In this document: positions 14,984 to 40,390 of the stretch, in pieces
Numbering within the stretch: position 1 is the stretch's first letter
Layout: the number at the start of each line of letters is the position of its first letter
Assembly (NCBI RefSeq): GCF_902764455.1
Contig: NZ_CACWVY010000042.1
Span: 1 to 40,716 of the forward strand
Direction of reading: 5' to 3'
Source of the DNA: an uncultured Methanobrevibacter sp.
GTDB lineage: Archaea > Methanobacteriota > Methanobacteria > Methanobacteriales > Methanobacteriaceae
Length of the DNA: 40,716 nucleotides
Notes under the pieces: generated by a model
What the model saw: the letters and a program-made list of their open reading frames with translations, nothing else
What the model was told of the DNA's origin: nothing
Database searches by the model: none
Made by a program: the position numbers and the translations under genes

Positions 14984-15097
14984 ATGAAAACAAAAGAAAA
15001 AAAAGTAAAATTAACACCAAAAGGCATTAAAAAACTGATGAAATATTTAAACACATCAAAAAAATATGGGAAATATAAAGTAGTTATCACATATTGA
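14984..15097 (+). CDS. Possible 37-aa lysine-rich small protein
   Basis: An ATG-TGA frame that begins MKTKEKKVKLTPKGIKKLMK and is very basic. There is no convincing ribosome binding site. The last 11 nt overlap the 3' end of the MATE gene on the other strand. The composition fits a small nucleic-acid-binding peptide, but an AT-rich region produces such frames by chance. Confidence 0.3.
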   Translation: MKTKEKKVKLTPKGIKKLMKYLNTSKKYGKYKVVITY

Positions 15098-16766: not shown

Positions 16767-16777
16767 GCTATTCACCT

Positions 16778-19700: not shown

Positions 19701-22700
19701 TCCCCTTCAACCAATTCAATGTCATTTATTTTTAGCTTATCCATATCATTTACAAAGAATTGGAATAATATATATTTAATTGAACGCACGAACAGATTAA
19801 CATACTCTTCAGTATAGATTTGATCATTATATTCCAGATACAGGGTAATAAGTTCCCCATCATCATAAATATCCATGTTTATTTTATAATCAGTTGAAAC
19901 AGTACCATCAAGGTCAATTGCTTCATAAGACCTACCATTAAGTTCAATGTCATTCTTTAATGATTCATGGAATGCATAGAAGAATTCCGGTTTTAATTGA
20001 TACTCTTCTGAAAGTTTTGTGTATGGATAATCGCTATGAACTAATGCATCTTTCCATGCTTTATCAACAATTTTTATGTAATCTTCAACCATCATGTCAC
20101 GATTTTCACCGTTTACAATAACAGGCAATGTCTTAACCAGCATTCCCTGTGTATTGGAGTAATTGGAATTTGCCCTACCGTTGAATATTGTTGTAATTAA
20201 TGACTTACCACTAAATGTAAACTTATTAAGACTTAGAAGTGTAGCCGCCATAAATAAAACGTTTGAACTTATTGAATGATCTTTACAGAAGTGCCTGACA
20301 AAAGTAGAGCCCATTTGATCTGAAACAAGTTTAATATTTCCAATATCAGGATTACCATTAATATTTGGAGTTAAAACTGTTGATTCAATGTCTTGGCTAA
20401 ATTGTTTTTTGAAGAATTTCTCAGAAATCTCACTAACAGAGGTTTTCTCTTCAATCAGGCTGTATTCAAATCCGTTAATCTTTTCAGATTCTATTTCTTC
20501 ACCTTTATATGCTTTGGCCAAATCATTGAAGAAAATACCTTGAGATACCCCATCAGTAATGATATGATGGAAATCAACGAATAATATAGTTTCTGCTGGT
20601 GTTTTATAGATTTTAAATCTAAATAATTGATTATTGTCTAATGGAATTGGTTTTATGTCTCTCTCCATTATTTCTTCATTGCTAATGGAATCTATTTCAA
20701 CAATTTCTATTTCTTCAATTTCAGCATCATCGCATCTTTTTTGGAATATTTTTCCATCATCTGTATTAATAATTCTTGTTTTAAGATATGGATGCGCATC
20801 AACAGTTTTAATAACCGCATCTTTAAGTTTATTAGGATCAATGCTACTTTCAAACCTTAATGCAAAAGGCATAGTGTATTTGATTTTTTCAGTTTGCATA
20901 CACTCATAGTAAATCCCCATTTGGTTTGAAGTCAATGGGAAATATTCCATATCTTTTGCAGTCTCAATAATTTCATCCACATCTATTTCAGATTCTATAT
21001 TATTGTCAATTTTATCTGCAAGAGATTTGATTGTTGGATTTGTGAACAATGATGTTACATCAATATTAACATTCATTTCATTGAAAATCAATGAGTTTAA
21101 TTTCATTAATGTTAAAGAAGAGAAACCTAATTCATATAAATCATCTGTTGTACCGAATTTATTTGTATTGGCAATAGATGCAACAAGTTCAACTAATTTT
21201 TCTTCAGTTTCACCTTCAGCTTCAACATAATCCAGATTTAATTTTGGTTTTGGAAGTCTTTTAATATCTGTTTTACCATTTGGAGATATTGGCATCTCAT
21301 CAAGCTGCATAAATACAGTTGGAACCATATATTCAGTTAATTTATTTCCCAAATACCTTTTCAAGAGATTTATATCTATTTCTTCATCGGCTGTGAAATA
21401 AGCACATAAATGTTCAACATTATTGATTTTCTCAATTATAACAACAATCTGCCTAATACCTGGGAATCTGGCAATATTGGATTCAATTTCACCAAGTTCA
21501 ATTCTCAATCCCCTTAATTTAATTTGGTTGTCAATTCTTCCTTTTATTACCAATTCGCCATTTGGAAGTTCAATTGCATAGTCTCCACTTCTATAATATG
21601 GAATATCATTAATAGACAAGAATACCTCTTTGGTTTTTTCTTCCATATTATAATATCCTCTGGATACGCCTTTACCTCCAATGTATAATTCACCCATTAC
21701 ACAACAAGGCACCAATTTACCGTCAATATCCCTAACTTCAGTTATACAATTGTGCAGAGCTTTTCCAACAGTTATATTTTCAGCATCAGTAAGTTTTTTA
21801 GCATTACATGTTACTGTTGTTTCAGTTGGACCGTAAATATTATACACTTCTAAATCAGGATACTCTAAAAGTAGAGAAATTAAGTCTTGAGGCACCATTT
21901 CTCCACCAACAGCAATATACTTGAAGTTAGGTACTTGTTTGGAGAATTCCTCATATTCCAAATATTGTTTGAATCTTGATGGTGCGGAAAATGTAAGTGA
22001 ATCAGGTTTTTCTCTTTCAACTAACTCCGCCAATTCCTTAATATTTTTAATTTCACTATCGTTAGCCAGCACCATTTCCAAACCAAAGGTTAATGGCATG
22101 AAATCAAGTAAAAATGCATCAAAAGATACTGTTGAAAGAGCAAGTGTCTTTTTCATTTTTGAATATGCATTATAAATTACACTATCCTCACTTTTTGAGA
22201 ACAGATTTGTAATATTCATATGACTGGTCATTACTCCTTTAGGATTGCCTGTAGAACCTGAAGTGTAAATCATATAAGCCAAATCATTCGGATTAATTTC
22301 CACTTGAGGATTTGAAGTATTCTCCTCTTCAAGCAATTCATTAACATCGATTGAATTTTCAATCCTTCCATCAGATATTAAATAATCTGCCTGACTGTTT
22401 TCAAAAATATAATCAATCCTGCCTTTAGGGTAGTTAATATCAATAGGTATAAATGCACATCCTGCTTTTAAAACACCTAAAATAGCTGAAATAAGCTTGC
22501 TGTCCCTAGGAAGCATTACTAACACATTACTGTTAGCTTTGATTCCTCTGTTTATAAGGGCATTAGCAACACGATTTGCCTTTTGGTTAAGTTCACCATA
22601 TGTCAATGAAGCATCACATGCAACCAATGCAATGTTTTCCGGAGATTCATCGACTTGTTTTTCAAAGCGTTTATGGATAAATGGAATTTCCACATCAACA

Positions 22701-24109
22701 AATTCATGTGATTCAACATCATCTTTTAATTTAACATCACATATTCTGCAACTGTCAATATCATTTTCAAGGAATTGGGCTAAAATGTTCATCATGGATT
22801 GTATGAATGTCCTAACATAATTTTCACTGTATAACTGGTCATTATATTCCATGATAACATTAAACTCATCACCATTATCATAAATAGCCAAATTAATTTT
22901 AGATTCAACTGTAACCATATCAAACCCTGCTAATTCCTGTGGAATGTACTCTTTATTGTTTATTATAATTTCATCTGATTCCAGGAATTCATGATAATTG
23001 TAGAAGAATTCAGGTTTTAACTGATATTTCTCAGCAATTTTAATATATGGATATGCAGTATTTCTTAAGGTTTCTTTCCAAGTTTGGTCAATAGATTTAA
23101 TGAAATCTCTGACTGACACCTGCCTGTTTTCATTATTGATTATAAACGGAACAGTTTTTACCAAAAATCCTTGAGTATTGAAATAACTTGGACTTGACCT
23201 TCCGTTGAATATTGTTGTTATTAATGTTTTGTCACTAAATGTGAATTTGTTTAGATTTAAAATTGTGGTTGCGATAAACAAAGCATTTTTACTTATGAAA
23301 TTATCATTACAAAACTCATCAATTAATTCTGAATCAAAAGTATATGAAACATTTTTTGTTTTACCTTCATCAGGATTTCCATTAAGATCTGGAGTTAAAA
23401 CAGTGGATTCTATTCCCTGAGTTAATTTATCATCGAAAAATGCCTCTGCTGATTGATATATTTCACTATTTTCAGCATCTTTTTCCAGAATACTGTAAAC
23501 ATAACCATCGATTATTTCTTCAGACAAATCCCTATTTTCATAGATATCTGCTATATCTCTAAATAAATTGTTTTGCGATACCCCATCAGTAATTATATGG
23601 TGGAAATCTGAGAATAATACAACTTCATCAGGGGTTTCATATATTTTGAATTTGAACAATTGATTATCCTCTATAGAGATTGGACCAACGTCATTTCTAA
23701 CAATGTCTTCATCGCTAATGCTATCGACTTTAACAATTTCAATATCATCGATTGCCGCATCATCGCATCTTTTCTGTTTTAATTCACCATCATGATTTAC
23801 AAATCTTGTTTTAAGATATGGATGTGCTTCAATAGTATCAAGAATTGCTTGTTTAAGTTTATTTGCATCAACATCATTGCCAAATTTTACTGTTGTAGGC
23901 ATGGTATACTTAATCACATCCGGATTTTGCTTACATTCATAGTAAATACCCAATTGATTTTCAGTCAACGGATAATACTCCATGCCTTTAGCTGATTCAA
24001 TAAGCTCTTGAAGACCAGCCTCTTTTTCAGATGAATTGTCAATTTCTATTGCAAAGTTTTTAACTGTTGGCTCATTGAACAATATGGAAACGTCTAAATT
24101 CGCACCCAT
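16778..24109 (-). CDS. NRPS, downstream part: modules 3-4 with terminal thioester reductase
   Basis: 2443 aa. Residues 1-30 are the C-terminal half of the carrier domain cut off from the upstream reading frame. Then follow C3 (about 40-455, HHIITDG near 170), A3 (about 470-950, TSGSTG near 614), T3 (DDLYELGFSSL near 993), C4 (about 1020-1450, HHIITDG near 1180), A4 (about 1470-1950, TSGSTG near 1622), and T4 (FFEIGGTSL near 1994). The reductase R runs from about 2060 to the end, with Rossmann TGATGFLG near 2083 and YVCSK as the catalytic Tyr-Lys. The R domain would release the peptide as an aldehyde or alcohol using NAD(P)H. A4 has a 4-residue insertion (AYVP twice) in core motif A2. The ATG at 24109 has only a weak GAGAAA before it, and this gene is almost certainly the second half of a split gene. 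Confidence 0.93.
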   Translation of the reverse strand: MGANLDVSILFNEPTVKNFAIEIDNSSEKEAGLQELIESAKGMEYYPLTENQLGIYYECKQNPDVIKYTMPTTVKFGNDVDANKLKQAILDTIEAHPYLKTRFVNHDGELKQKRCDDAAIDDIEIVKVDSISDEDIVRNDVGPISIEDNQLFKFKIYETPDEVVLFSDFHHIITDGVSQNNLFRDIADIYENRDLSEEIIDGYVYSILEKDAENSEIYQSAEAFFDDKLTQGIESTVLTPDLNGNPDEGKTKNVSYTFDSELIDEFCNDNFISKNALFIATTILNLNKFTFSDKTLITTIFNGRSSPSYFNTQGFLVKTVPFIINNENRQVSVRDFIKSIDQTWKETLRNTAYPYIKIAEKYQLKPEFFYNYHEFLESDEIIINNKEYIPQELAGFDMVTVESKINLAIYDNGDEFNVIMEYNDQLYSENYVRTFIQSMMNILAQFLENDIDSCRICDVKLKDDVESHEFVDVEIPFIHKRFEKQVDESPENIALVACDASLTYGELNQKANRVANALINRGIKANSNVLVMLPRDSKLISAILGVLKAGCAFIPIDINYPKGRIDYIFENSQADYLISDGRIENSIDVNELLEEENTSNPQVEINPNDLAYMIYTSGSTGNPKGVMTSHMNITNLFSKSEDSVIYNAYSKMKKTLALSTVSFDAFLLDFMPLTFGLEMVLANDSEIKNIKELAELVEREKPDSLTFSAPSRFKQYLEYEEFSKQVPNFKYIAVGGEMVPQDLISLLLEYPDLEVYNIYGPTETTVTCNAKKLTDAENITVGKALHNCITEVRDIDGKLVPCCVMGELYIGGKGVSRGYYNMEEKTKEVFLSINDIPYYRSGDYAIELPNGELVIKGRIDNQIKLRGLRIELGEIESNIARFPGIRQIVVIIEKINNVEHLCAYFTADEEIDINLLKRYLGNKLTEYMVPTVFMQLDEMPISPNGKTDIKRLPKPKLNLDYVEAEGETEEKLVELVASIANTNKFGTTDDLYELGFSSLTLMKLNSLIFNEMNVNIDVTSLFTNPTIKSLADKIDNNIESEIDVDEIIETAKDMEYFPLTSNQMGIYYECMQTEKIKYTMPFALRFESSIDPNKLKDAVIKTVDAHPYLKTRIINTDDGKIFQKRCDDAEIEEIEIVEIDSISNEEIMERDIKPIPLDNNQLFRFKIYKTPAETILFVDFHHIITDGVSQGIFFNDLAKAYKGEEIESEKINGFEYSLIEEKTSVSEISEKFFKKQFSQDIESTVLTPNINGNPDIGNIKLVSDQMGSTFVRHFCKDHSISSNVLFMAATLLSLNKFTFSGKSLITTIFNGRANSNYSNTQGMLVKTLPVIVNGENRDMMVEDYIKIVDKAWKDALVHSDYPYTKLSEEYQLKPEFFYAFHESLKNDIELNGRSYEAIDLDGTVSTDYKINMDIYDDGELITLYLEYNDQIYTEEYVNLFVRSIKYILFQFFVNDMDKLKINDIELVEGEIPEFEEIDTPILHKRFEKQVVEKAKDVALVASDATLTYAELNEKSNRIANALIRRGVKPKSNVLIMLKRDSNLITSILGVLKAGCAYVPAYVPIDPEYPQERINYIYENSQADYIISYETSDNSINVNELLEEENTVNPNVDVRPDDLAYMIYTSGSTGNPKGVMISHKNICNQAQNPKSTYDSLLCITTISFDVSVDDILTSLSNGLKLILADDVQIRNVPELIKLIDENKPEVLEITPSRIGSYLELEEFCNVISCLKCIFLGGEQFSAKVYEDLRKYSDAVVYNSYGPTETTITSNNKEVTDVNNLTVGPPLTNYVTEVRDIDGKLVPNGVMGELYIGGMSVGKGYYNMPEKTKESFLTINDIPYYKSGDYAIELPNGEIDIKGRIDNQIKLRGLRIEIGEIETNIGQYPDIRQAVVVIREINNVDHLCAYYTANCEIDSNDLKEFLKDRLTNYMIPTVFMQLDEMPQTPNGKTDTKKLPEPKLDLNYVAPKTKLEQEICAIFSSILNIETVGAEDNFFEIGGTSLIASKLIIELLNQGYTVRYDDIFKKKTPKALAKLLSGESDSEEELNIEEDIIKNYNYDEINKLLEENTLENFFNGENLELGNVLLTGATGFLGIHILYEFIKNEKGKIYCMLRKGKFDSCEDRLIDLMNYYFDEDFTDLIGSRIILIEGDITEIDDFKKLENEPIDTIINSAALVKHYTADDYIFRVNVDGVINGLKFAQTRNNIKYVQISTISVLSSYSLNEEEYPNQEYCERTLYYGQDLENKYVCSKFLAERSVLQAATKGLPVKIIRVGNLMSRYSDGMFQKNYDTNAFLNNIKTIKKLGAMNPTMANEKVDMSQIDYVAKAVLALSKTPEKSTVFHCMNNHYISHRDIIDALNIFGYGISEVGFEIFKEIYKHNINEKIQGIITADFSIDDFDEEDDFEENVEIEQTVDILQSLGFDWPKPDKLYLKRLFEYLNKFDYFE
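19421..19444 (-). repeat. 12-bp perfect tandem duplication in adenylation domain 4
   Basis: AGGAACATATGC occurs twice in a row on the plus strand. The protein reads YVPAYVPID where the other adenylation domains read FIPID at the same place. Four residues are added in frame within core motif A2. Confidence 0.9.
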
Positions 24110-24123
24110 TTTCTCATAGATTA

Positions 24124-24151
24124 TGGAATTTAATTTCTGGAATTTAATTTC
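24124..24151 (-). repeat. 14-bp perfect tandem duplication that splits the NRPS gene
   Basis: TGGAATTTAATTTC is repeated exactly at 24124-24137 and 24138-24151. Fourteen bases shift the frame by two and bring the TAA at 24130-24132 into phase. Without one copy the frame reads MKLNSIIYEKMGANLD, matching the other carrier domains (for example MKLNARIYEEMGVNLD). The span 16778-29364 minus 14 is 12573 nt, exactly 4191 codons. Confidence 0.95.
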
Positions 24152-27100
24152 ATTAAGGACAATGAAGTAAAACCAATAGCGTATAAGTCATCTGTAACAC
24201 CAAATTCATCAACATCTGCAATGGATGAAACAATATCATATAATTTTTCTTCTGTTTCAGTTTCAGGCATCACCAAAGCCAATTTAAGTTGAGGTTCAGG
24301 CAGTTGTTTCAAGTCTGTCTTGCCGTTTGGTGTTTGAGGCATTTCATCAAGCTGCATGAATACTGTCGGAACCATATAATTAGTAAGTCTGTCTTTTAAA
24401 AACTCTTTTAAGTCATCAGTGTCAATTTCACCATTAGCTGTGTAATATGCACATAAATGATCCGCATTGTTAATTTCTTTAATTACAACAACAGCCTGCA
24501 TTATATCTGGATATTGGCCAATATTGGTTTCAATTTCACCTATTTCAATCCTTAATCCTCTGAGTTTAATCTGATTGTCTATTCTTCCTTTAATATCTAT
24601 TTCACCATTCGGAAGTTCAATAGCATAGTCCCCACTTCTGTAATATGGAATGTCATTGATAGTCAGGAAAACCTCTGCAGTTTTTTCCGGCATGTTATAG
24701 TATCCTTTACCTACACCAGTACCACCAATATATAATTCGCCCATTACACCATTAGGAAGCAATTTGCCATCAATGTCACGAACATCAGTAACATAATTGG
24801 TTAAAGGAGGACCAACAGTCAAATCATGCATATCAGTGACTTCTTTGTTGTTTGAGGTGATTGTTGTTTCAGTTGGACCATAACTGTTATAAATAACTGC
24901 ATCACAGTATTTTCTTAAATCTTCATAAACTTTAGCTGAAAACTGCTCTCCACCAAGGAAAATACTCTTTAAGCATGATATAACATTACAGAAGTCTTTT
25001 ACCTCAAGATAAGAAGCAAGTCTTGAAGGAGTAATTTCTAAAACTTCAGGTTTATTCTTATCAATCAATTTGATAAGCTCAGGAACATTTTTGATTTGAA
25101 CGTCATCAGCCAATATCAATTTCAACCCATTTGAAAGAGAGGTCAATATGTCATCAACAGACACGTCAAAAGAGATAGTTGTAATACAAAGCAAACTGTC
25201 ATAAGTGGATTTAGGATTTTGAGCCTGATTACAGATGTTTTTATGACAAATCATTACACCTTTAGGGTTACCTGTGGATCCTGAAGTATAAATCATATAT
25301 GCCAAATCATCAGAATCAACATTAACATCAGGACTTTCTGAATTGCCTTCTTTAAGGAGTTCTTCAATGTCTAAAGAATTTTCTCCAGATTCATTGGCAA
25401 TAATATAATCTGCATTACTGTTTTCATAAATATAATTTATTCTCTCCTGAGGATATTCTGGATCAATCGGAATGAATGCGCAACCCGCTTTAAGGATACC
25501 TAAAATGGAAGCAATCAAATTACTGTCCCTTGAAAGCATTACCAAAACATTGCTTTTCGGTTTGACTCCTTTATCTATTAAAGCATTTGCAATAACATTT
25601 GCTTTTTCATCCAATTGCTTGTAAGTCAATGTGGCATCAGTTGCAACAAGAGCAGTTTCATCACCTTTGCTGGCAACTTGTTTTTCAAAGCGTTTATGTA
25701 AAATCGGCATATCGACAGGTGTGAATATAGGTGTCTCTTTACTTTCACCCAATTCTATTTCACCAATGCTTAATTTTTCAATATCCTCCTCAGTTAATTG
25801 ATTTATTACATCAATTATGCAATTTAAGAAGGTGTCAATGTAATCATCACTGTACAACTGGTCATTATACTGGATAAACAATTCAATATTATCTTTGGTT
25901 TCATTAACATCAAAAGATATTTTATAGTTAACTTCAAGTGAATTCAAATATTTGACTTTATAAGTTTTACCATTAATCTCAATTTCTTCAGCGTCAAGAT
26001 TATTGTATGCATAGAAAAACTCTGGTTTCAATCCAAACTCTTCAGAAATCTTAGTATAAGAATAATCTGAATGATTAATGGTTTCCATCCAGATATCATT
26101 GACTGAATTTAAATATTCTTTAAATGATAATGTCCTATCATCATTGATTGAGACAATTGGGAGTGTTTTTACTAGCAATGCCTGTGTGTTGAGGTAGGAT
26201 GAGTTTGATCTTCCATTGAAAATAGTTGTAATCAATGTTTTGTCATTGAATGTATACTTATTCAAGTTCAGCATGGTTACTGCCATGAATAAGACATTAG
26301 GAGTTATCCTGTTTTCACTGCAAAACTTATTAACCAATTCAGGGTCGATATTTTTGGAAATTGATTTTAAAATTCCTTCTTCAACATTACCATTCAAATT
26401 AGGAGTCAGTACAGTCGAATCAACTTCTTGAGTTAATTTATCATGGAAGAATTCTCTGGATAATTTATATTTTTCACTGTTTTCATTCTCACTTTCAATT
26501 ATACTGTTAATGTAACCGTTGATTGTTTCTTTTTCAATTTCAATTCCCTGATATGCATTGGAAATATTTGTAAACAATTTATCCAATGATTCCCCATCAG
26601 AAATTATATGGTGGATATCTGAGAATAAAATTGTTTCACTAGGAGTTTTATAGATTTTAAATCTGAATAACTGGTCATTATGCAAATCAAACAGTTTAAG
26701 ATTTTCTTTTTCAATTTCACTATCTGAAATATTTTCAACATCAACAATTGGAATGTCATCAATATCTATTGAATCATCACGTTTCAGCATCACTTTACCT
26801 TTTTGTGCAACAATTCTGGTTTTAAGATAAGGATATGCTTCAATTGTCTTAATGATAGCATCATGTAATCTATCCGCATCAATTTCACTGCCAAATCTTA
26901 TGATAGACGGGAGATTATATTGTGCAACATTTCCACTTTGAATGCACTCATAATAGATTCCCATTTGATTTTCTGTCAATGGATAATAAACCATATCCTT
27001 AGCTGATTCCATTACACTATTCAAATCTAGAATATCATTGTTTTCTATTTCATTTGCAATATTTTTAATTGTAGGATCATTCAATAATGAAATAATATCT

Positions 27101-29364
27101 AAATTAACACCCATTTCCTCATAAATTCTTGCATTTAATTTCATCAGTGACAATGAAGTAAATCCGACAGCATACAAATCATCAGTAGTACCAAATTCCT
27201 TTGTTTTGCTGATGGATGAAGCAATTTCATGCAACATTATTTCAGTTTCAGTTTCTGGGAGTGTGAAAGACAATCTAAGTTGTGGCACTGGCAGTTGTTT
27301 CAAGTCTGTCTTACCGTTTGGTGTTTGCGGCATTTCATCTAGCTGCATGAACACAGTCGGAACCATATAACGAGTAAGACGATCTTTTAAAAACTCTTTT
27401 AAATCATTTCTATCAATTTCTTCATCGGCAGTGTAATAAGCACATAAATGTTCATTATCGTTAATCTCTTTAATTACAACAACAGCCTGTCTTATATTTG
27501 GATATTGAGAAATATTGGTTTCAATTTCGCCTATTTCAATTCTCAATCCTCTTAATTTTATTTGGTTGTCAATTCTTCCTTTAATGTCGATTTCACCATT
27601 TGGAAGTTCAATAGCATAGTCCCCGCTTCTGTAATATGGAATGTCATTGATAGTCAGGAACACTTCTTCGGTTTTTTCAGGCATGCCATAATATCCTTTA
27701 CCTACACTAGTACCTCCAATGTATAATTCACCCATTACACCATTAGGAACCAATTTTCCATCAATATCACGAACATCAGTGACATAATTAGTTAAAGGAA
27801 GACCTACAGTCAAATCGTTTACATCTGTGACCTCTTTGTTGTTTGAGGTGATTGTTGTTTCTGTTGGACCGTAACTGTTATAGACAACTGCATCACTGTA
27901 TTTTCTTAAATCTTCATAAACTTTTGCTGAAAATTTCTCTCCTCCAATGAAAATACATTTTAAGCAAGATATAACATTGCAGAAGTCTTTTACCTCAAGA
28001 TAAGAAGCGAGTCTTGAAGGAGTACAATCTAAAACTTCAGGTTTATTTACATCAATTAACTTGATTAAAGCAGGAATATTTTTGATTTGAGAATCATCAG
28101 CAAGTATCAACTTTAATCCATTTGAAAGAGATGTCAATATGTCGTCAACAGACACGTCAAAAGAGATAGTTGTGATACAAAGCAAACTGTCATAAGTGGA
28201 TTTAGGGTTTTGGACCTGATTGCAAATGTTTTCATGGCTAATCATCACACCTTTAGGATTACCTGTTGAACCGGAAGTGTAAATCATATATGCCAAATCA
28301 TCAGAATCAACATTAACGTTAGGATTTTCTGAATTGCCCTCTTTAAGCAGTTCTTCAATGTCTAAAGATTTTTCTCCGGATTCATTGGCAATAATATAAT
28401 CCGCCTGACTGTTTTCATAAATATAGTTTATTCTCTCCTGAGGATATTCCGGATCAATCGGAATGAATGCGCAGCCGGCTTTAATGATACCCAAAATAGA
28501 AGCAATCAAATTACTGTCCCTTGAAAGCATTACTAAAACATTGCTTTTCGGTTTAACTCCTTTTTTAATTAAAGCATTTGCAATAACATTTGCTTTTTCA
28601 TCCAATTGCTTGTAAGTCAATGTGGCATCAGTTGCAACAAGAGCAATTTCATCACCTTTCTCAATTACTTGCTTTTCAAAGTGCTTGTGAATCAGAGGCA
28701 TTTCAACTTCACTGAAGACAACATTTTCATTTTCACCGACAAGAGCAATATCGCAGATATTTGTTTTATCAATATTAGCATTAACTATTTCTTCAACTAT
28801 TTTTTCAAGGCTTGACAAGAATAAATCAATGAAATCTTTTGTATATAATTCATTATTATAAAATAAGGATAAACAAACAGTTTCATCATTTTCAACAATT
28901 TTTAGATAATTGGAATATTCTGCATTAGATTTTAAATCATCATCAAATGCATAATAAAATTCAGGTTTTAAAGGAAGATTATCTTTATCGAAGTATTCAT
29001 CGAATTCCAACGTTTTAACATAATTCTCATGAACATTTTCCAGAAATTCACTAATTGGCACTTGTCTGTTTTCAAATTTGTTTGCAAATGGAACATTATT
29101 TTGATTGAAAATTAAAGTTTCATCTGAAAAATTAAATTTAGTAAGTGTTAATGTTAAACTCGCCAATAAAAGCTCATTGATTGAAATTGAATTGGATTTG
29201 GCAAATCCTACTAAATTCTCTTTTTTAATTTCATATTCTGATTTATCAATTATACCTTTTTCTTTTTCTCCATTCCTATTTGGAGTAATTAAAGTTGTTT
29301 CATCAAAATCCAGACATAACTCTGACAAATATTCACTGAAAATATCCTTTGTTTTTTTATCCAT
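24130..29364 (-). CDS. NRPS, upstream part: partial C, A1-T1, C2-A2 and half of T2
   Basis: 1744 aa. Residues 1-210 resemble only the C-terminal lobe of a condensation domain; the HHxxxDG half is missing. Then A1 (about 225-700, TSGSTG near 362), T1 (GFTSLSLMKL near 734), C2 (about 785-1200, HHIISDG near 917), A2 (about 1220-1700, TSGSTG near 1358) and T2 up to its phosphopantetheine serine (near 1731). The frame then ends abruptly after NSRN. A1 and A2 activate amino acids as adenylates and load them on the carrier serines; C2 joins them. No phosphopantetheinyl transferase is in the window. The ATG at 29364 is preceded by AAGGTTTGAT. The protein lacks helices 3-4 of T2, so module 2 is unlikely to work unless the frame is restored. 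Confidence 0.93.
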   Translation of the reverse strand: MDKKTKDIFSEYLSELCLDFDETTLITPNRNGEKEKGIIDKSEYEIKKENLVGFAKSNSISINELLLASLTLTLTKFNFSDETLIFNQNNVPFANKFENRQVPISEFLENVHENYVKTLEFDEYFDKDNLPLKPEFYYAFDDDLKSNAEYSNYLKIVENDETVCLSLFYNNELYTKDFIDLFLSSLEKIVEEIVNANIDKTNICDIALVGENENVVFSEVEMPLIHKHFEKQVIEKGDEIALVATDATLTYKQLDEKANVIANALIKKGVKPKSNVLVMLSRDSNLIASILGIIKAGCAFIPIDPEYPQERINYIYENSQADYIIANESGEKSLDIEELLKEGNSENPNVNVDSDDLAYMIYTSGSTGNPKGVMISHENICNQVQNPKSTYDSLLCITTISFDVSVDDILTSLSNGLKLILADDSQIKNIPALIKLIDVNKPEVLDCTPSRLASYLEVKDFCNVISCLKCIFIGGEKFSAKVYEDLRKYSDAVVYNSYGPTETTITSNNKEVTDVNDLTVGLPLTNYVTDVRDIDGKLVPNGVMGELYIGGTSVGKGYYGMPEKTEEVFLTINDIPYYRSGDYAIELPNGEIDIKGRIDNQIKLRGLRIEIGEIETNISQYPNIRQAVVVIKEINDNEHLCAYYTADEEIDRNDLKEFLKDRLTRYMVPTVFMQLDEMPQTPNGKTDLKQLPVPQLRLSFTLPETETEIMLHEIASSISKTKEFGTTDDLYAVGFTSLSLMKLNARIYEEMGVNLDIISLLNDPTIKNIANEIENNDILDLNSVMESAKDMVYYPLTENQMGIYYECIQSGNVAQYNLPSIIRFGSEIDADRLHDAIIKTIEAYPYLKTRIVAQKGKVMLKRDDSIDIDDIPIVDVENISDSEIEKENLKLFDLHNDQLFRFKIYKTPSETILFSDIHHIISDGESLDKLFTNISNAYQGIEIEKETINGYINSIIESENENSEKYKLSREFFHDKLTQEVDSTVLTPNLNGNVEEGILKSISKNIDPELVNKFCSENRITPNVLFMAVTMLNLNKYTFNDKTLITTIFNGRSNSSYLNTQALLVKTLPIVSINDDRTLSFKEYLNSVNDIWMETINHSDYSYTKISEEFGLKPEFFYAYNNLDAEEIEINGKTYKVKYLNSLEVNYKISFDVNETKDNIELFIQYNDQLYSDDYIDTFLNCIIDVINQLTEEDIEKLSIGEIELGESKETPIFTPVDMPILHKRFEKQVASKGDETALVATDATLTYKQLDEKANVIANALIDKGVKPKSNVLVMLSRDSNLIASILGILKAGCAFIPIDPEYPQERINYIYENSNADYIIANESGENSLDIEELLKEGNSESPDVNVDSDDLAYMIYTSGSTGNPKGVMICHKNICNQAQNPKSTYDSLLCITTISFDVSVDDILTSLSNGLKLILADDVQIKNVPELIKLIDKNKPEVLEITPSRLASYLEVKDFCNVISCLKSIFLGGEQFSAKVYEDLRKYCDAVIYNSYGPTETTITSNNKEVTDMHDLTVGPPLTNYVTDVRDIDGKLLPNGVMGELYIGGTGVGKGYYNMPEKTAEVFLTINDIPYYRSGDYAIELPNGEIDIKGRIDNQIKLRGLRIEIGEIETNIGQYPDIMQAVVVIKEINNADHLCAYYTANGEIDTDDLKEFLKDRLTNYMVPTVFMQLDEMPQTPNGKTDLKQLPEPQLKLALVMPETETEEKLYDIVSSIADVDEFGVTDDLYAIGFTSLSLMKLNSRN

Positions 29365-29966: not shown

Positions 29967-30776
29967 ATGGGGGTTTCAAAAGTGGAAACTGTTGAACTGG
30001 GAATAGTATATTTTATAATAGAAGTAGTTATTTTTCTAATTTTATTAATAATTGGAGACTTATTATATAAAAAAATCAAAAACAGTCCAAACAGACGAAT
30101 AAATAATATCAAAACATACTTTCCAGAAGAGGAAAAAGAAACATTAATACAAATGTTTTTCCTGGTAATGATGGGACTGCTCTTTATTGATATTTTGTAT
30201 AAACTAATTTTTTACACAGCAGACAACTTTTATCTTTCAATATTTGATATTGCCCTTTCGCTGTTTATTGCAATTACTTTAGATAAAACATCCTATAAAA
30301 ATAAAATATTAATATTTTTGTTAATACCATTCGGTTCACAAACATTTATCATATTTGGAAAATCACTTATCGGATTAATTGATTTGATACACATTCCCAT
30401 ACTTATTTACTTTATATACTACTATTACAAAGGATTCATAAAGCATGCCCAAAAAAATGGATTAGGAATAACTGTGCTGTTGCTATTTTTAATAATATTC
30501 TTCAGTTTTTTTATAACACAATATTTTGAATCCGTCAATCCTCTGGATTCCCTTGTTATGGTTACAAATCAATTTACAAGCAATGGATATTCAATTTCAG
30601 GACATACAATTTCCAGCAAATTAAATTCACTGTTTTTAGCATGGGGAGGTTATTTGATATCCAGCGTAAGTACAGCTATTTTAACTACCACAATTTTAAC
30701 AAATCATTTTAATAAAAAAATAAATAAAATAAACGATAAATTAGATAAAATAGAAGAACAGACTAAGGAAAAGTAG
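29967..30776 (+). CDS. Channel-like membrane protein with atypical pore motif (paralogue 1)
   Basis: 269 aa with about 6-7 hydrophobic spans. The last third has the helix, pore loop, helix order of a potassium-channel module: a span ending FFITQYFES, then NPLDSLVMVTNQFTSNGYS where channels have TVGYGD, then a closing span SLFLAWGGYLISSVSTAIL. A charged coiled-coil-like tail follows (NKINDKLDKIEEQTKEK). Because the filter reads TSNGYS, potassium selectivity is doubtful. A GTG at 29982, 8 nt after GGGGGT, gives METVELG and matches the length of the paralogues better, so it may be the true start. It has two paralogues on the other strand at 32.1-33.7 kb. Confidence 0.75.
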   Translation: MGVSKVETVELGIVYFIIEVVIFLILLIIGDLLYKKIKNSPNRRINNIKTYFPEEEKETLIQMFFLVMMGLLFIDILYKLIFYTADNFYLSIFDIALSLFIAITLDKTSYKNKILIFLLIPFGSQTFIIFGKSLIGLIDLIHIPILIYFIYYYYKGFIKHAQKNGLGITVLLLFLIIFFSFFITQYFESVNPLDSLVMVTNQFTSNGYSISGHTISSKLNSLFLAWGGYLISSVSTAILTTTILTNHFNKKINKINDKLDKIEEQTKEK

Positions 30777-31187
30777 GGCATTAATTCATTGATTTGGCAT
30801 CTAACTATTGTCATTCTATATAATATTTTTAACTCACAAGCAACAAGGATGAGTTCTAATTATAAAATCTTTGATTTTTTGCCAAATTCAATGTTGCTGA
30901 TTTCTAATTATTTTTTGGTTATGACATTCAGCATTATTAAAATCCAATGCATTAAAAATTTGAGATTTTCATCATCTGAAAATTGTTTTTTTGATTTCAT
31001 CGAATAAACCTTCTTACCTGCATCATAATGTTTATTTTAATACTGATACTTGTTGACATTATGTTTTGGACTCTTTTTAATCTGAATTACTAGACAACAC
31101 ATTAGAAAAAATTATTTATCAGACAGACTCACAATATATAAATAAGTTTTTTAACTGAAATTTTGTGCTATTTTGAGATGGTGTAAT
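30777..31187. other. Intergenic region with zinc-ribbon gene promoter
   Basis: A 72-codon frame at 30789-31007 lacks a ribosome binding site and looks accidental. Near 31133-31145 the sequence AATATATAAATAAG is a good TATA box, about 45-55 nt before the zinc-ribbon ATG. Confidence 0.5.
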
Positions 31188-31847
31188 ATGGCCAATTTTT
31201 GTACTAACTGTGGAAGTAAAATAAGAAAAGAAGATAAGTTCTGCACTAACTGTGGAACTAAAATAAGAAAAGAAGATAAGTTTTGCACTAACTGCGGAAC
31301 AAAATTAAGAGAAGAAGACAAGTTCTGCACTAACTGTGGAACTGAAAATGATAAATCAGATATAAAACCAGATAAACATTTATTTAACTCAGAACACGGC
31401 AGTTTGGAAAAAATATACAGAATAGCTAAAGAAAAAGAAAAAAAGAAAAAATTAAAAATAATTGATGAAATATTTGAATCAGAAGAAATCAGATTAGAAA
31501 TAATTAAAAACAATATCAACCAGATTAATGTAATTTCCATTAAAGATAATCTAAAAACTAAGTTAATCGATGAAAAAGAAAAAATGAGTGAGGAAGAAAT
31601 TAAATATTTCATAAAAACAGAATTAAAAAAAGCGAAAAAAGAACAAAAAGAAATTAGTAAAAAAATAGAAAAGAATGAACCAGTTCATGGAGGATATTGT
31701 AACTTGAATTGCAGACATTGCTACGAAGAATTTATGGATAGTGGAGGAGGGATAGTTGGTGATTTTGATAGTGAAGGATATGTTGAATATTATTGTGGTT
31801 TAGGACATTCTTTATCCTACGGGAGTTTTTGTAAAGATTATGAATGA
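31188..31847 (+). CDS. Multi-zinc-ribbon protein with C-terminal cysteine cluster
   Basis: 219 aa from the ATG at 31188, which follows GAGATGGTG. An upstream in-frame TTG at 31173 is less likely. Residues 1-55 are four near-identical 14-residue units of the type KFCTNCGTKIRKED, giving four CxxC knuckles that could bind two zinc ions. Residues 70-160 are Lys/Glu-rich and probably coiled coil. The last 55 residues hold CNLNCRHC, YCGLGH and a final FCKDY. CNLNCRHC copies the CxxxCxxC spacing of radical-SAM enzymes, but no barrel follows, so zinc binding is more likely. Function unknown; zinc-ribbon scaffolds of this sort are common in methanogens. Confidence 0.75.
   Translation: MANFCTNCGSKIRKEDKFCTNCGTKIRKEDKFCTNCGTKLREEDKFCTNCGTENDKSDIKPDKHLFNSEHGSLEKIYRIAKEKEKKKKLKIIDEIFESEEIRLEIIKNNINQINVISIKDNLKTKLIDEKEKMSEEEIKYFIKTELKKAKKEQKEISKKIEKNEPVHGGYCNLNCRHCYEEFMDSGGGIVGDFDSEGYVEYYCGLGHSLSYGSFCKDYE
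31197..31345 (+). repeat. 42-bp tandem coding repeats (zinc knuckles)
   Basis: About three and a half direct repeats of 42 bp encode the CTNCG units. The units are nearly identical in DNA (TGCACTAACTG repeated), so they are prone to expansion or loss. Confidence 0.7.
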
Positions 31848-32117
31848 ACCGTCATAATTGCTAATTTTTGAATATTTTAAAAACTAATATTCATTTGAAT
31901 GATACCTTATTTTCATGAGAATAAACGGAAAAATATGCTTGAACGCATTGTAAAAAAATTTAATTAATTTTTCTGCTTTTTAATCCATATTCAACAATAC
32001 TAAATTTAGTTTTAAAACAATCAACTTGAATATTAAATTTTATATATCTACTTCCTTTTTATTTTTAAGTTTCAGGTATAGATTTGTTGGGAGCTAATTT
32101 TGCTCGGCAATTAAATA

Positions 32118-32918
32118 TTACTCCTTTTCTTTTTTCTTTTTAACTAAATCTTTCATTTCAGCAAATTGGCGATTAACATATCCATTTACTATTGAAACCG
32201 CCAAAGTGGCCGTACCGACACCAGATAATATGAAGCCACTCCAAGCCAATACCAACGAATTAATTTTACCTATTATGTTTTTTCCTGAAGCGTCAAAACT
32301 GTTGCTTGTGAATGCATTGGACACCATGGTTATGGAGTCCATAGGAGAAACGTTTTCAACCAGGATGGTAAATAAAAAACTAACCAGTATTATTGCAAAT
32401 AACAATATTATGGTTATTCCCAATCCGTTATTTTCAGTATAATCAACAAATTTGCGGAAGTAAACTTTAATGAAATACAAATATCCGATAATATGGGTCA
32501 GATCCAATAAAACAACAATACTATCTCCAAAGAGTATTCCAGTTATGGAACCGAATGGAATTAATAGGAATAATAAAACTTTATCTTTTAAGGAATTTTT
32601 GTCCATTTTAAGAGCAAGATATATTGAAACAATAATATCCAAAAGATATGCAAAATAAAAACCTTCGTTCCAATCAAAGGTCAGATATAAACAAATCATG
32701 ATAATGACCAATATCACAATCAAATAAAAAACTTGCTTTAATAAGAATACTTCTTCAGAAGGAAAATATTCTTGAGGATTTGAAAGCCTTGACTTTTTAA
32801 AACGGGCTATTAATCTGCCTTTATTAACAATATATTTGGCAATATATACTAAAGCAGCGAAAATTCCCATTGCAACCAATATCTGGAAAATAGAAATAAA
32901 TATCCATTCAATGCCCAT
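32118..32918 (-). CDS. Channel-like membrane protein with atypical pore motif (paralogue 2)
   Basis: 266 aa, 6-7 spans, collinear with the proteins at 29967 and 32918. The pore region is SPMDSITMVSNAFTSNSFDASG, with the filter position TSNSFD, further from TVGYGD than in its paralogues. The final span VLAWSGFILSGVGTATLAV is followed by a short basic tail (KDLVKKKKEKE). Its ATG overlaps the stop of the upstream paralogue as TAATG, so the two are translationally coupled and probably form a heteromeric channel-like complex. Confidence 0.75.
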   Translation of the reverse strand: MGIEWIFISIFQILVAMGIFAALVYIAKYIVNKGRLIARFKKSRLSNPQEYFPSEEVFLLKQVFYLIVILVIIMICLYLTFDWNEGFYFAYLLDIIVSIYLALKMDKNSLKDKVLLFLLIPFGSITGILFGDSIVVLLDLTHIIGYLYFIKVYFRKFVDYTENNGLGITIILLFAIILVSFLFTILVENVSPMDSITMVSNAFTSNSFDASGKNIIGKINSLVLAWSGFILSGVGTATLAVSIVNGYVNRQFAEMKDLVKKKKEKE

Positions 32919-33697
32919 TATTCTTCCTCTCCTTCTTCAATCAATTTTCTTAATTCTTCAAATTCCTTTTTAAAATGCCTAATTAAAAGCGCCGCCGTTA
33001 ATGTTGCAGCACCTACTCCAGAAAGAATATATCCTCCCCAAACCAGCAATAAACTGTTGAGTTTACCAGAAATAGTATTACCAAAAGCAGAATACCCATT
33101 ACCTGTAAATTGATTGGAAACAATTACAAGAGAATCTAAGGCATTCGCACCTTCTGCATATTGTGTTATGAAAAATCCTGCGAAAATTACTGCAAATAAC
33201 AATATTATAGTTAACCCCAAAGCGTTTGAATTAGTATATTCTACAAATTTATCGAGACTGAGTTTTGCAAGGTATATAAAGATGAAAGCATGAAGAAAAT
33301 CTGCAAAAATTACTAAACTAAGGCCAAATAAGGGATAAACTAAAGATCCATATGGAACCAATAACAACCAGATAAGTCTATTTTTCCAAGAACTCATATC
33401 TAATGTGATTGCAAAATATAGTGAAAGTGCAATGTCAAATACTGCAAAATAATACAAATCATTTTGGGACCCCATAAAGGAATAGAAAATATTTACAACA
33501 CACAGTGCCATCAAAATTAAATAAAAAACCTGTATTAAAGTATGGACTTCATCTTCAGGCAGTAATTCATTGATATTTATGGAGTTTCCATACTTATTTT
33601 TTAATTTATGATATATGACTTTGCCTAAAATGGTTAAAACTAGAAAGATAATAATTACCACAGCTAATTGAAACAAAGTACGAGTAAATATTTCCAT
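32918..33697 (-). CDS. Channel-like membrane protein with atypical pore motif (paralogue 3)
   Basis: 259 aa, first gene of the minus-strand pair. The pore stretch is NALDSLVIVSNQFTGNGYSAFG, with filter position TGNGYS. Spans such as LGLTIILLFAVIFAGFFITQ and LLLVWGGYILSGVGAATLT flank it. The acidic tail (FEELRKLIEEGEEE) contrasts with the basic tail of its partner and could pair with it. The ATG at 33697 has GGTGAAC just upstream. Confidence 0.75.
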   Translation of the reverse strand: MEIFTRTLFQLAVVIIIFLVLTILGKVIYHKLKNKYGNSININELLPEDEVHTLIQVFYLILMALCVVNIFYSFMGSQNDLYYFAVFDIALSLYFAITLDMSSWKNRLIWLLLVPYGSLVYPLFGLSLVIFADFLHAFIFIYLAKLSLDKFVEYTNSNALGLTIILLFAVIFAGFFITQYAEGANALDSLVIVSNQFTGNGYSAFGNTISGKLNSLLLVWGGYILSGVGAATLTAALLIRHFKKEFEELRKLIEEGEEE

Positions 33698-37149: not shown

Positions 37150-37333
37150 TTTTTTTCACTAAAATTAGATTATAATTATACTTTGTAATGAATATTATAA
37201 ATAATTTATTAATTTTTTTTGTTGAAAAACAATATTATAGAAAGTTACATTAAATATTTGTTTTAAAATCAATCAAAAATAAAATAAATATTTAAATAAC
37301 GATTTTTCACATATATTATCCATAGTGATAATT

Positions 37334-40300
37334 ATGAAAGCTTTAAAAATTATGATTGTCCTGTTTATCCTAATCATGTCTGTAGGTGCTGTCTGTGCAG
37401 CAGAAAGCATCACCGACAATACAATAAGCAATGACAGCAAAGAAATATTACAAACGGTTCAGGAGGATATCACAACTGACGACAGTTCGGATGTCCTTGG
37501 AACCGCTCAGAATGACATCTACACAGCAAGTGAGGATTCATTCACCAATCTGACTGATGAAATAAAAAGTAAAGATGTTGTGGATTTAACTCACGACTAT
37601 AAATTCAACAATGAAACTGATAACAAAAATGGAATTGTTATCGGCAAGGATAATTTTGTACTTAACGGTAATGGCCATACAATTGACGGGAAAAATCAAT
37701 CAAGAATATTCAACATTACCGCAAACAATGTAACATTAAGCAATCTGATTTTAACTGGTGGTAATGCTGAAAAAGGTGGGGCAATCTATACTACTGGGTC
37801 ATTGACATTGAGCAATGTTACTTTCATTGACAACTATGCATTTAAACAGGGTGCTGCAGTTGGGCTTTATGAGAATGTAACTATCAAATGTGATAATTCA
37901 AGATTCATAGACAATTATGCTGTTGAAAAAGGTTCAGCAATATATCTTGATAAAGGAGAATTAGATCTTTCAAATACAAACATGACCTCAAAATGGGTTT
38001 CCAAATCAGCTCAAATTACTGCTTATAAAAATGCTATAATCTATATAGAAAATGCAATTTTTGCTGATACTACTTCAACCTATTCACCTGCATTATACAT
38101 TCAACGTTCTAACGTTTCAATTATTAATTCCAAATTCAATAATTTAAAAGCTGACATTACTGCAGGGGCAATAAGTCTTAAAGAATGTGGTGAAGTATAC
38201 ATTGAAAACTGTGAATTTACAAACGTTACATCTTCTAAAAATGGAGGAGCTATTAATGCAGACATTTGGGGAGACCTTGGTGTTAACGGTAATGTAACAA
38301 TAATTGATACAATATTTAAAGACACTTCTTCCGAATTTGGTGGAGCATATCTTCAATTAGGTGGAAATTTATTCATAAACAATACATTATTCACAAACAA
38401 TCATGCTAGATATAATGGAGGATCACTTTACCTTTCATATGTCACAAGCAACATTACTAATTGTAATTTCACCTCAAACGGTGTTGACGTTATTGAAGGA
38501 TATCCAACCTATGGTGGTGCAATATTCAATGATATAGGTACTTTAAATGTGGATAAAACCAATTTTATCAATAACACTGCAAGTGCAGGAAGCGCAATCT
38601 GTACATATGATTCATCATACAACATTAAAAATTCACTGTTTGAAAACAATATAAACCCAATCTACACATTTTTTGATAAGGTTGGTGTTTTAGACAACAA
38701 TGTTTATATCAATGATGATAACATCTCCACCAACAACGAACTTCATTCAACAATAGTGATTGGACAAGGCATGCAATTAACATTGCTGAATAATACTATT
38801 AACATCACTAATCTTCCAAAAAGATTTGATTTGCGTGACTGGGGATGGGTATCGCCAGTTAGAGATCAAGGTTGGATGGGTGCCTGCTGGACATTCGGAA
38901 TGACTGGAGCTTTAGAATCTGTAATATTAAAAGCTGCTGGAATCACATCTGACTTTTCAGAAAATAACATGAAAGATTCAATGTATAGATATTCAATTTA
39001 TGGGGACACTAGTTTAGTTGAAGGGGGAAACAGTGTTTATGCTATAAGTTATTTAGTAAGCTGGCTTGGAGCATTAATATATGATGCAGATGTTTATGAT
39101 GAAATGGGAAAAATTTCCCCTGTGATAACAACTTTAAATGATATTCATGTTCAAGATGCAATATTCGTACCTAATAATGAAATCCCTAACGGAACAAAAC
39201 TTAAGGAAGCAATTATTAAATATGGTTCTCTGGCTGTGTCTTATTATGGGCAATCTACATATGATGAATCAAATCCGTATTATAATGATACTACATATGC
39301 ACAATATGTTGATAAACCTTTAGATCCAAATCATGCCGTTTCCATCGTAGGATGGGATGACAATTTCCCAAAAGAAAACTTCTTAATCACCCCTCCTGGT
39401 GATGGTGCTTGGATTGTTAAAAACAGCTGGGGTCCTGGCTGGGGAAATGATGGATTTTTATATGTTTCATATTATGACCAAACACTCTTAAGATATGATC
39501 CTGCTCAGCCAAGTAGTTGTGCTGCTACAGTAATATTTGAAAATACCGTACCTTACAACAAGAACTACCAATATGCAATTATAGGTGGCGGTAATTTCAT
39601 GTCTGGTGAAAAAAATATAAGTTATATGAATGTGTTTGAAGCATTAGATGATGATTTGATTGCTGCTGTCGGAACATACTTCAACCAAGAGGATGTCAAT
39701 TACACCGTTGAGATTTATGTCAATGATGAGTTGAAATTAACTCAAAAAGGAGTATCACCATTCTTCGGTTACCACACAATCAAATTAGATGACTACATAT
39801 CAATCAAAAAAGGAGATGTATTCAAAGCAATTATAACTTCCAATGCTATGCCTTATATTATACAGCCTGATGTGAGAGTAGATTATACTGAGAATATTTC
39901 CTTTTTCTCTATTGATGGGGCACCATGGGCTGATTCTTATAAAGATGGAGGAGCAATTGTTTGCTTAAAAGTCTATACCGTTGCTGATGACAGTAAAATC
40001 ATCAACAACAAAAACATTACTGTCGACTATGACGGAGGCAAATACTTCTCCGTCAATGTTGTAACTGAGGACGGAATAGCTGTTGCAGGTGTCAGCGTAA
40101 AATTCAACATCAACGGCGTGACAAAAACAGTTAAAACCAACAGCAAAGGTGTCGCTAAAATCAAAATAACACAAACCCCTAAAAAATACACCATCAAAAC
40201 CACATACAACGGAAAAACAGTCAAAAACACAGTCACCGTAAAACAGGTTTTAACCACAAGCAAAGTCACAGTCAAAAAGACAGCCAAGAAATTTACCTTA

Positions 40301-40390
40301 AAAGCAACCCTTAAAATCAACGGCAAACTGGTTAAAGGCAAAAAGATAACATTCAAATTAAATGGCAAAACCTACAAGGTCAAAACCTAA
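37334..40390 (+). CDS. Secreted beta-helix adhesin-like protein with papain-type (C1A) protease
   Basis: 1018 aa from the ATG at 37334; the in-frame GTG at 37325 is part of the GTGAT binding site. Signal peptide 1-23 (ends AVCA). Residues about 65-470 are parallel beta-helix repeats (GGAIYTTGSLTLSNVTF type), as in methanogen adhesin-like proteins. Residues about 498-730 are a C1A cysteine protease with the full active site: Q512 and C518 in RDQGWMGACW, H667 in NHAVSIVGWDD, N697 in KNSWGPGWG. A beta-rich segment and Ig-like repeats (GVSVKFNINGVTKTVKTNSKG) follow, probably for binding the cell wall. It would act outside the cell. The last repeat is cut off by a frame loss at 40390; the missing piece is still readable to 40454. 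Confidence 0.9.
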   Translation: MKALKIMIVLFILIMSVGAVCAAESITDNTISNDSKEILQTVQEDITTDDSSDVLGTAQNDIYTASEDSFTNLTDEIKSKDVVDLTHDYKFNNETDNKNGIVIGKDNFVLNGNGHTIDGKNQSRIFNITANNVTLSNLILTGGNAEKGGAIYTTGSLTLSNVTFIDNYAFKQGAAVGLYENVTIKCDNSRFIDNYAVEKGSAIYLDKGELDLSNTNMTSKWVSKSAQITAYKNAIIYIENAIFADTTSTYSPALYIQRSNVSIINSKFNNLKADITAGAISLKECGEVYIENCEFTNVTSSKNGGAINADIWGDLGVNGNVTIIDTIFKDTSSEFGGAYLQLGGNLFINNTLFTNNHARYNGGSLYLSYVTSNITNCNFTSNGVDVIEGYPTYGGAIFNDIGTLNVDKTNFINNTASAGSAICTYDSSYNIKNSLFENNINPIYTFFDKVGVLDNNVYINDDNISTNNELHSTIVIGQGMQLTLLNNTINITNLPKRFDLRDWGWVSPVRDQGWMGACWTFGMTGALESVILKAAGITSDFSENNMKDSMYRYSIYGDTSLVEGGNSVYAISYLVSWLGALIYDADVYDEMGKISPVITTLNDIHVQDAIFVPNNEIPNGTKLKEAIIKYGSLAVSYYGQSTYDESNPYYNDTTYAQYVDKPLDPNHAVSIVGWDDNFPKENFLITPPGDGAWIVKNSWGPGWGNDGFLYVSYYDQTLLRYDPAQPSSCAATVIFENTVPYNKNYQYAIIGGGNFMSGEKNISYMNVFEALDDDLIAAVGTYFNQEDVNYTVEIYVNDELKLTQKGVSPFFGYHTIKLDDYISIKKGDVFKAIITSNAMPYIIQPDVRVDYTENISFFSIDGAPWADSYKDGGAIVCLKVYTVADDSKIINNKNITVDYDGGKYFSVNVVTEDGIAVAGVSVKFNINGVTKTVKTNSKGVAKIKITQTPKKYTIKTTYNGKTVKNTVTVKQVLTTSKVTVKKTAKKFTLKATLKINGKLVKGKKITFKLNGKTYKVKT

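Follow-up and report, generated by a model that had tools for sequence, protein, structure and literature searches.

Paired, filter-altered paralogues of Methanobrevibacter: a putative cation channel clade related to six-span K+ channels

Contig NZ_CACWVY010000042.1 of an uncultured Methanobrevibacter species, analysed here as a window of 40,716 nucleotides, carries three intact paralogues (A, B and C), each of which ends in a helix, a pore helix (P-helix), a loop and a second helix. What kind of membrane protein do they encode? Sequence comparison places them in the voltage-gated-like channel superfamily, as a diverged clade that has gained a helix (S0), lacks S4 arginines and has a shorter selectivity filter. 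It seems rather probable that this clade, arising from six-span K+ channels, forms tetrameric P-loop cation channels which are heteromeric (C with B), poorly selective for K+ and not gated by voltage. Paralogue A (269 amino acids (aa), 29967-30776, plus strand) is an open reading frame (ORF) with a family match, and the tree groups it with the unpaired members; its filter, TSNGYS, is residues 204-209 (codons 30576-30593). On the minus strand lie C (259 aa, 32918-33697, filter TGNGYS), the first gene of a pair, and B (266 aa, 32118-32918), the second, which belongs to the second-gene clade and has the filter TSNSFD at residues 204-209 (codons 32292-32309). Re-reading the ORFs returned the coordinates and filter strings listed by the first-pass annotation of this DNA. 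The trio is not a product of chance, because the source genome holds 8 full-length family copies (search with A), query A has matches in 55 of 67 genomes of the genus (copy number 0 to 8) and the ratios of nonsynonymous to synonymous substitution (dN/dS) against five close relatives are low (0.137-0.159 for C, 0.123-0.254 for B).

How are these proteins related to known channels? The Pfam and NCBIfam models tried do not detect the family: A, B and C gave no match over the cut-off in either, and a PDB sequence search with C returned none. The relationship shows in the two weakest genome-level matches of the family profile (A1, built from 63 members), L174 (E 4.6e-9) and L175 (E 1e-4). Both belong to the six-span K+ channels, the first having the filter TTGFGD and the second TTGYGD (Pfam Ion_trans_2 at 1.2e-14 and 4.5e-15); the L175 sequence matches KcsA and KvAP in the PDB, and channels like it are common, with matches in 123 of 138 genomes of Methanobacteriaceae. 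When A1 was compared by hhalign with A2, a profile built from 26 ordinary six-span channels of Methanobacteriaceae, the two aligned at 99.3% probability (E 1.4e-20) over C residues 47-259, and at 99.7% (E 4.4e-26) in a repeat run. A reversed A1 profile scored 72.6% over 42 coiled-coil columns, and the comparison was therefore repeated without the tails: S1-S6 then gave 98.4%, S1-S4 alone 95.5% (E 1.5e-8) and the pore alone 92.7%. TrkH (19 proteins from relatives), compared as a rival, and DUF4013, as a control, reached 0.1% and 0.3%, and S0 alone had no match among the ordinary channels (0.8%). Even without a profile, the transmembrane part of L174 found 51 of the 153 distinct family proteins at E<=1e-3 (best 4.3e-7, database size 10000). 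We regard homology to accepted six-span K+ channels over S1-S6 as settled at the level of sequence profiles, on which the claim rests instead of on structure searches because no Foldseek E-value was significant. The extra spans, which had been said to match no channel, are the S0 helix and an S1-S4 domain homologous to that of these ordinary channels. With the Ion_trans_2 channels of Methanobacteriaceae (L174, L175) the family shares the S1-S6 order, the P-loop, a proline in S3, a histidine in S4, an NGLG linker, a glutamate before the pore helix and GR/GK after the filter; unlike the family, those channels have their own T-T-G-[YF]-G-D with an aromatic pore helix and nothing that matches S0. 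The source genome also has an ordinary channel (L220, NTGYGD) and TrkH genes, so the family is not its sole K+ path.

The predicted fold agrees with this assignment. C was modelled with AlphaFold2 as a monomer from alignment A1, which is free of ordinary channels, with a mean predicted local distance difference test score (pLDDT) of 86.0 and a predicted template modelling score (pTM) of 0.76. The model has helices at residues 2-37 (S0), 48-75, 78-98, 104-113 plus 116-124 and 128-155 (S1-S4), 160-182 (S5) and 186-198 (the P-helix, 33104-33142 on the minus strand, with invariant N195 and F197), then the filter loop GNGYSAFG (residues 199-206, 33080-33103, minus strand, placed by model and alignment) and a long helix at 209-258 (S6 and tail). 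The pore of B, modelled alone from 84 of 87 alignment rows, has helices at 4-27, 31-42 and 54-104 (mean pLDDT 86.7, pTM 0.60). The two models together show the six-span layout of S1-S4, S5, a P-helix with a re-entrant loop, and S6, bearing out the channel-like pore end proposed earlier; the first-pass annotation would have given up its reading for predicted folds without such a loop, and both models contain one. Foldseek top rows for C and the B pore are mostly tetrameric cation channels. In VIA-align the B pore superposes on MthK (6ux7_A) with Z 7.7 and a root-mean-square deviation (rmsd) of 1.6 over 47 aligned residues (3-49, covering S5, P-helix and loop), and C on TRPV2 (6oo3_A; Z 7.9, rmsd 3.9, 107 aligned) and KvAP (6uwm_A; Z 7.0, rmsd 7.8, 183 aligned). 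These structure comparisons are consistent with the sequence result and add little to it. The C chain ends with the S6 helix, and the RCK domain of BK/Slo channels is absent. The helix reaches the protein end in the model, so there is no room for the cyclic-nucleotide domain of CNG (cyclic nucleotide-gated) and HCN channels, and none is among the Pfam matches shown. Nor do the proteins have the two spans and cytoplasmic Kir domain of KirBac and NirBac, having more spans and no C-terminal domain. The PDB rows of Slo1, a channel with an S0 helix of its own, align with C from the first helix onward (residues 1-156, Z 6.7), a likeness of position that does not establish homology of S0.

What has happened to the filter? 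It was tabulated in C numbering for 151 of the 153 family proteins and five ordinary relatives, the remaining two 'single' rows being inspected separately. TVGYGD had been read as replaced by TSNGYS, and altered it is, but the better register lays S-N-G-Y on T-V-G-Y with one residue lost directly after the tyrosine (TxGYGD to SNGY-A). The kept glycine and tyrosine of SNGY would then be what we take to be Gly77 and Tyr78 of KcsA. Not one of the 153 proteins has the TxGYG signature, the place of its threonine being S or G and the next N (once K). Around this core, E182 is common to the family and the ordinary relatives, T198 is retained (one S) with the following threonine changed to S or G at 199, G201 is missing from the 22 TSNS proteins alone, Y/F202 is conserved, and so are G211 and K212, with one exception apiece. 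The aromatic W-[YFV] of the pore helix has become mostly V-M or V-I at 191 and 192 (mostly T-M in TSNS proteins), a valine has become N195 in every family protein, and a proline G206 (one E). The threonine replaced by N200 gives a filter asparagine in 152 of the 153; the single exception has lysine. After Y/F202 stands A, S, T, V or G, or D/E in TSNS proteins; the aspartate of GYGD is without counterpart in the filter alignment, and the spacing from the tyrosine to the Gly of GK/GR is one residue shorter than in ordinary relatives. The lysine-bearing member (TSKGYT, L181, 1495-2298) is the only one of its kind, and its match also shows an in-frame stop. In S4 (residues 128-155) the only conserved basic places are H136, K145 and K150; the Arg/Lys ladder is absent, as is an arginine ladder in the printed L174-type ordinary channel sequences.

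C and B are, by sequence and gene order, old partners. The C stop and the B start share one base (TAATG, 32916-32920, minus strand), which reads as translational coupling, and their C-terminal sequences are oppositely charged (C ...EEGEEE, final 10 residues at 32921-32950; B ...KKKKEKE, final 10 at 32121-32150, both on the minus strand), as had been reported for the pair. The collected loci hold 293 ORFs (159 distinct) over 90 bits, with 43 distinct same-strand adjacencies; 40 of these count as C-B pairs, three having been dropped (pieces of a broken gene in L172 and an A-type gene before the C-B pair in L006 and L007). A genome search with A found 134 full-length-like places in 54 genomes, among them 36 adjacencies comprising 70 genes in 26 genomes. 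Over the final 10 residues the first gene is negative in 40/40 pairs and the second positive in 37/40, and the second-minus-first difference is positive in 40/40 over the last 10 and over the last 15 residues. Mean final-10 charges are -1.07 for unpaired genes, -3.62 for first genes and +2.15 for second genes, and among the 15 pairs below 70% identity the difference over the last 15 residues is positive in all 15, with the first gene negative in 14. The second genes form one clade with support 99 in a 158-row FastTree and again in an IQ-TREE of 95 of those rows (the other 63 being near-duplicates and L029), from which filter columns and tails were excluded; all 40 leaves of this clade are paired behind a C-type gene. 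Among the unpaired genes beside the first genes in the tree are L095, with no partner recognised in 4982 downstream bases, and L091, whose sequence is cut. Filter classes follow the pairs: 22 combine TGNG[YF]x with TSNS[FY][DE], 18 combine TSNGYx with TSNGYx, and none is mixed. This matching may go back to one joint event that was then inherited, since a single origin is possible for each derived filter. Strict pairing, tail charges, filter classes and the second-gene clade together strengthen the earlier suggestion of heteromers. Across 67 loci of at least 9 kb (near-duplicates included) there was no constant neighbour gene, the commonest neighbour families occurring at 16 of 67.

How might such a channel work? 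The clade would have been derived within Methanobacteriaceae from ordinary six-span K+ channels. C and B would co-assemble, probably 2+2; translational coupling and clade-wide pairing point that way, as does the prolongation of S6 into a short coiled coil whose tail is acidic in C and basic in B. Single A-type genes would form homomers. Because the outer filter half is changed or missing, as it is in NaK and NirBac, the pore may conduct monovalent cations with little preference for K+. The S1-S4 domain is probably insensitive to voltage, and gating would therefore occur via membrane tension, a lipid or a soluble cue. A role in cation or osmotic homeostasis is likely, if weakly supported. It is also conceivable, somewhat short of probable, that C and B subunits with their co-inherited filters (TGNG[YF]x and TSNS[FY][DE]) alternate round the pore, the tails fixing the assembly and the acids of B forming an outer cation site that sets a selectivity unseen in homotetramers.

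Known channels offer points of comparison. A K+ channel from which the outer filter is removed reportedly becomes CNG-like. NaK, a homotetramer, is likewise a P-loop cation channel with an altered filter, but it has two spans, other filter letters and no lost residue. NaK (TVGDGN) keeps only sites S3 and S4 of the four and is non-selective (PMC9822992). NirBac channels are prokaryotic K+-channel relatives that also depart from TxGYG; their oligomers fit tetramers, and they pass Na+, K+, Rb+ and others non-selectively (PMC4607889). Unlike the family, they have Kir architecture with a cytoplasmic domain, are each described as a single gene product and, in NirBac2.1, read TTGTD. CNG channels are described as non-selective channels in which S1-S4 are present, conductance is thought to be voltage-independent, and in CNGA3+CNGB3 tetramers the B subunit is functional only alongside A (PMC4256070, PMC3931646). 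The family differs from these in its lack of a cyclic-nucleotide domain, its extra S0, its archaeal host and its filter.

Could the same channels still be K+-selective? In that case SNGY(A/G) would still filter for K+, its outer mouth being rearranged, and the pair would serve for K+ leak or uptake. The nearest relatives are indeed ordinary K+ channels (TTGFGD/TTGYGD), and, the B-type TSNS class apart, nearly every member retains the Gly and Tyr/Phe of TxGYG. We nevertheless consider it unlikely, given S or G at the place that we take to be Thr75 of KcsA and N at that of Val76, the residue lost after GY, the missing counterpart of what would be Asp80, the replaced aromatic pair of the pore helix and, in B, serine for Gly77 with an acid after Phe/Tyr. 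A TSNS filter without glycine in 22/22 of its class, in genes never found alone, would also suit B-type (TSNSFD) proteins as silent regulatory subunits, or the pair as a non-conducting membrane sensor. This is quite unlikely, as B, which is under purifying selection, retains the P-helix, N195, F197, N200 and the GK following the loop, 18 of the 40 pairs have a B-type protein with the ordinary family filter TSNGYx, and no soluble domain is present apart from the tail; no evidence was found for the sensor role raised earlier. That the genes are decaying, non-functional paralogues is very improbable: broken copies do occur elsewhere (the L172 pieces, fragments in G013 and G081) and copy number runs from 0 to 8, but dN/dS is 0.12-0.25, the filter asparagine is nearly universal and the pairing conserved. 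Practically negligible is the chance that each protein is a single M1-P-M2 unit of the TrkH/KtrB transporter superfamily, to which only a look-alike loop points (SAFNNAGF against SNAFTSNGY, the former presumably as in TrkH). That superfamily requires four such units where the C model has one pore loop per chain, S1-S4 matches six-span channels, and membership was rejected on this single loop and the 0.1% profile probability.

Several observations weigh against a poorly selective heteromeric channel or the evidence brought for it. Loss of K+ selectivity is not certain, because 7 of the 22 TG-type C proteins, and only these, still read GYG without the T (GNGYG). The A1 profile found only two chance-like rows in the PDB, and the 63 members found no convincing channel family in Pfam (best Lig_chan, 0.029, in 11/63; 25 of the 32 matching families shown). 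Foldseek gave no match at E<=0.001 for C or the B pore (best 0.26 and 0.35), Z values below 8 may reflect merely a common helix arrangement, and five ordinary channels are among the 84 rows behind the B pore model. Over the last 20 residues the charge difference is positive in 35/40 pairs, equal in 2 and reversed in 3, and the second tail is positive in just 11 of the 15 non-redundant pairs over the last 15 residues; the contrast is one inherited property of a clade, not 40 independent events. Conduction, selectivity and assembly alike are so far inferred.

How widespread is the family? Query C had matches in 30 of 61 genomes, every one of the same genus, and none in 24 genomes outside Methanobacteriaceae. 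With profile A1, matches came from 87 of the 151 genomes searched across the phylum, spread over 6 of 20 genera (87 of the 138 genomes of Methanobacteriaceae). Two of these genera contribute nothing but an ordinary channel (G101, G160); once they are set aside, the family proper counts 85 of 151 genomes and 4 genera, all of one archaeal family. Named relatives are only Methanobrevibacter or Methanosphaera among the best 80 of 117 loci of a contig scan, which used exact peptide patterns including the filter and would therefore miss relatives with other filters. These names make a gut Methanobrevibacter the very likely source of the window. In viral contigs 68 stretches fit the pattern, with no true relative among them. 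So far, then, the family has been seen only in some gut-dwelling methanogens. Two members of genus g23 (L184, 1495-2334, and L171, 1372-2289) evolve fast and sit on long branches while retaining TSNGY, and at L039 a family gene is apparently split by about 1.7 kb of other DNA (G036:C6:98803-99114 and 100784-101152, query residues 1-105 and 134-256). Among the open-licence papers listed by searches on prokaryotic, methanogen and CNG-type channels, none describes the family, so the suggestion that it is undescribed stands for the literature searched, while as a channel type it is a divergent subfamily of a known one. If the proposed cation channel is real, one archaeal family would offer a natural experiment in rewriting the K+ filter, since it contains ordinary relatives, a filter of intermediate form and a pair that has diverged further. 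It would also offer a rare prokaryotic tetrameric cation channel with subunit pairing maybe written in gene order and tails. The channel family concerns methane-producing archaea of ruminants.

Other genes of the window deserve brief mention. A gene situated between A and the B-C pair (31185-31847, plus strand, opposite to B and C) encodes several near-identical tandem zinc ribbons (FCTNCGTKIRKEDK repeats; Pfam Zn_Ribbon_1 5.6e-16). Positions 16778-29364, with 15087-16775, hold two very large adjacent minus-strand ORFs of 2443 and 1744 aa; the latter adjoins a MatE exporter (Pfam 2.2e-22) and is presumably a non-ribosomal peptide synthetase, with adenylation-like and condensation-like stretches that recur when read by eye. 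A 1207-aa protein (237-3860, plus strand) carries a novel STAND NTPase 3 domain (3.6e-8), a type frequent among defence genes, and its 1184-aa neighbour (3857-7411, minus strand) has no Pfam match at 1e-4. The 1021-aa product of 37325-40390 (plus strand), probably a surface protein, combines papain-type peptidase with lectin-like domains.

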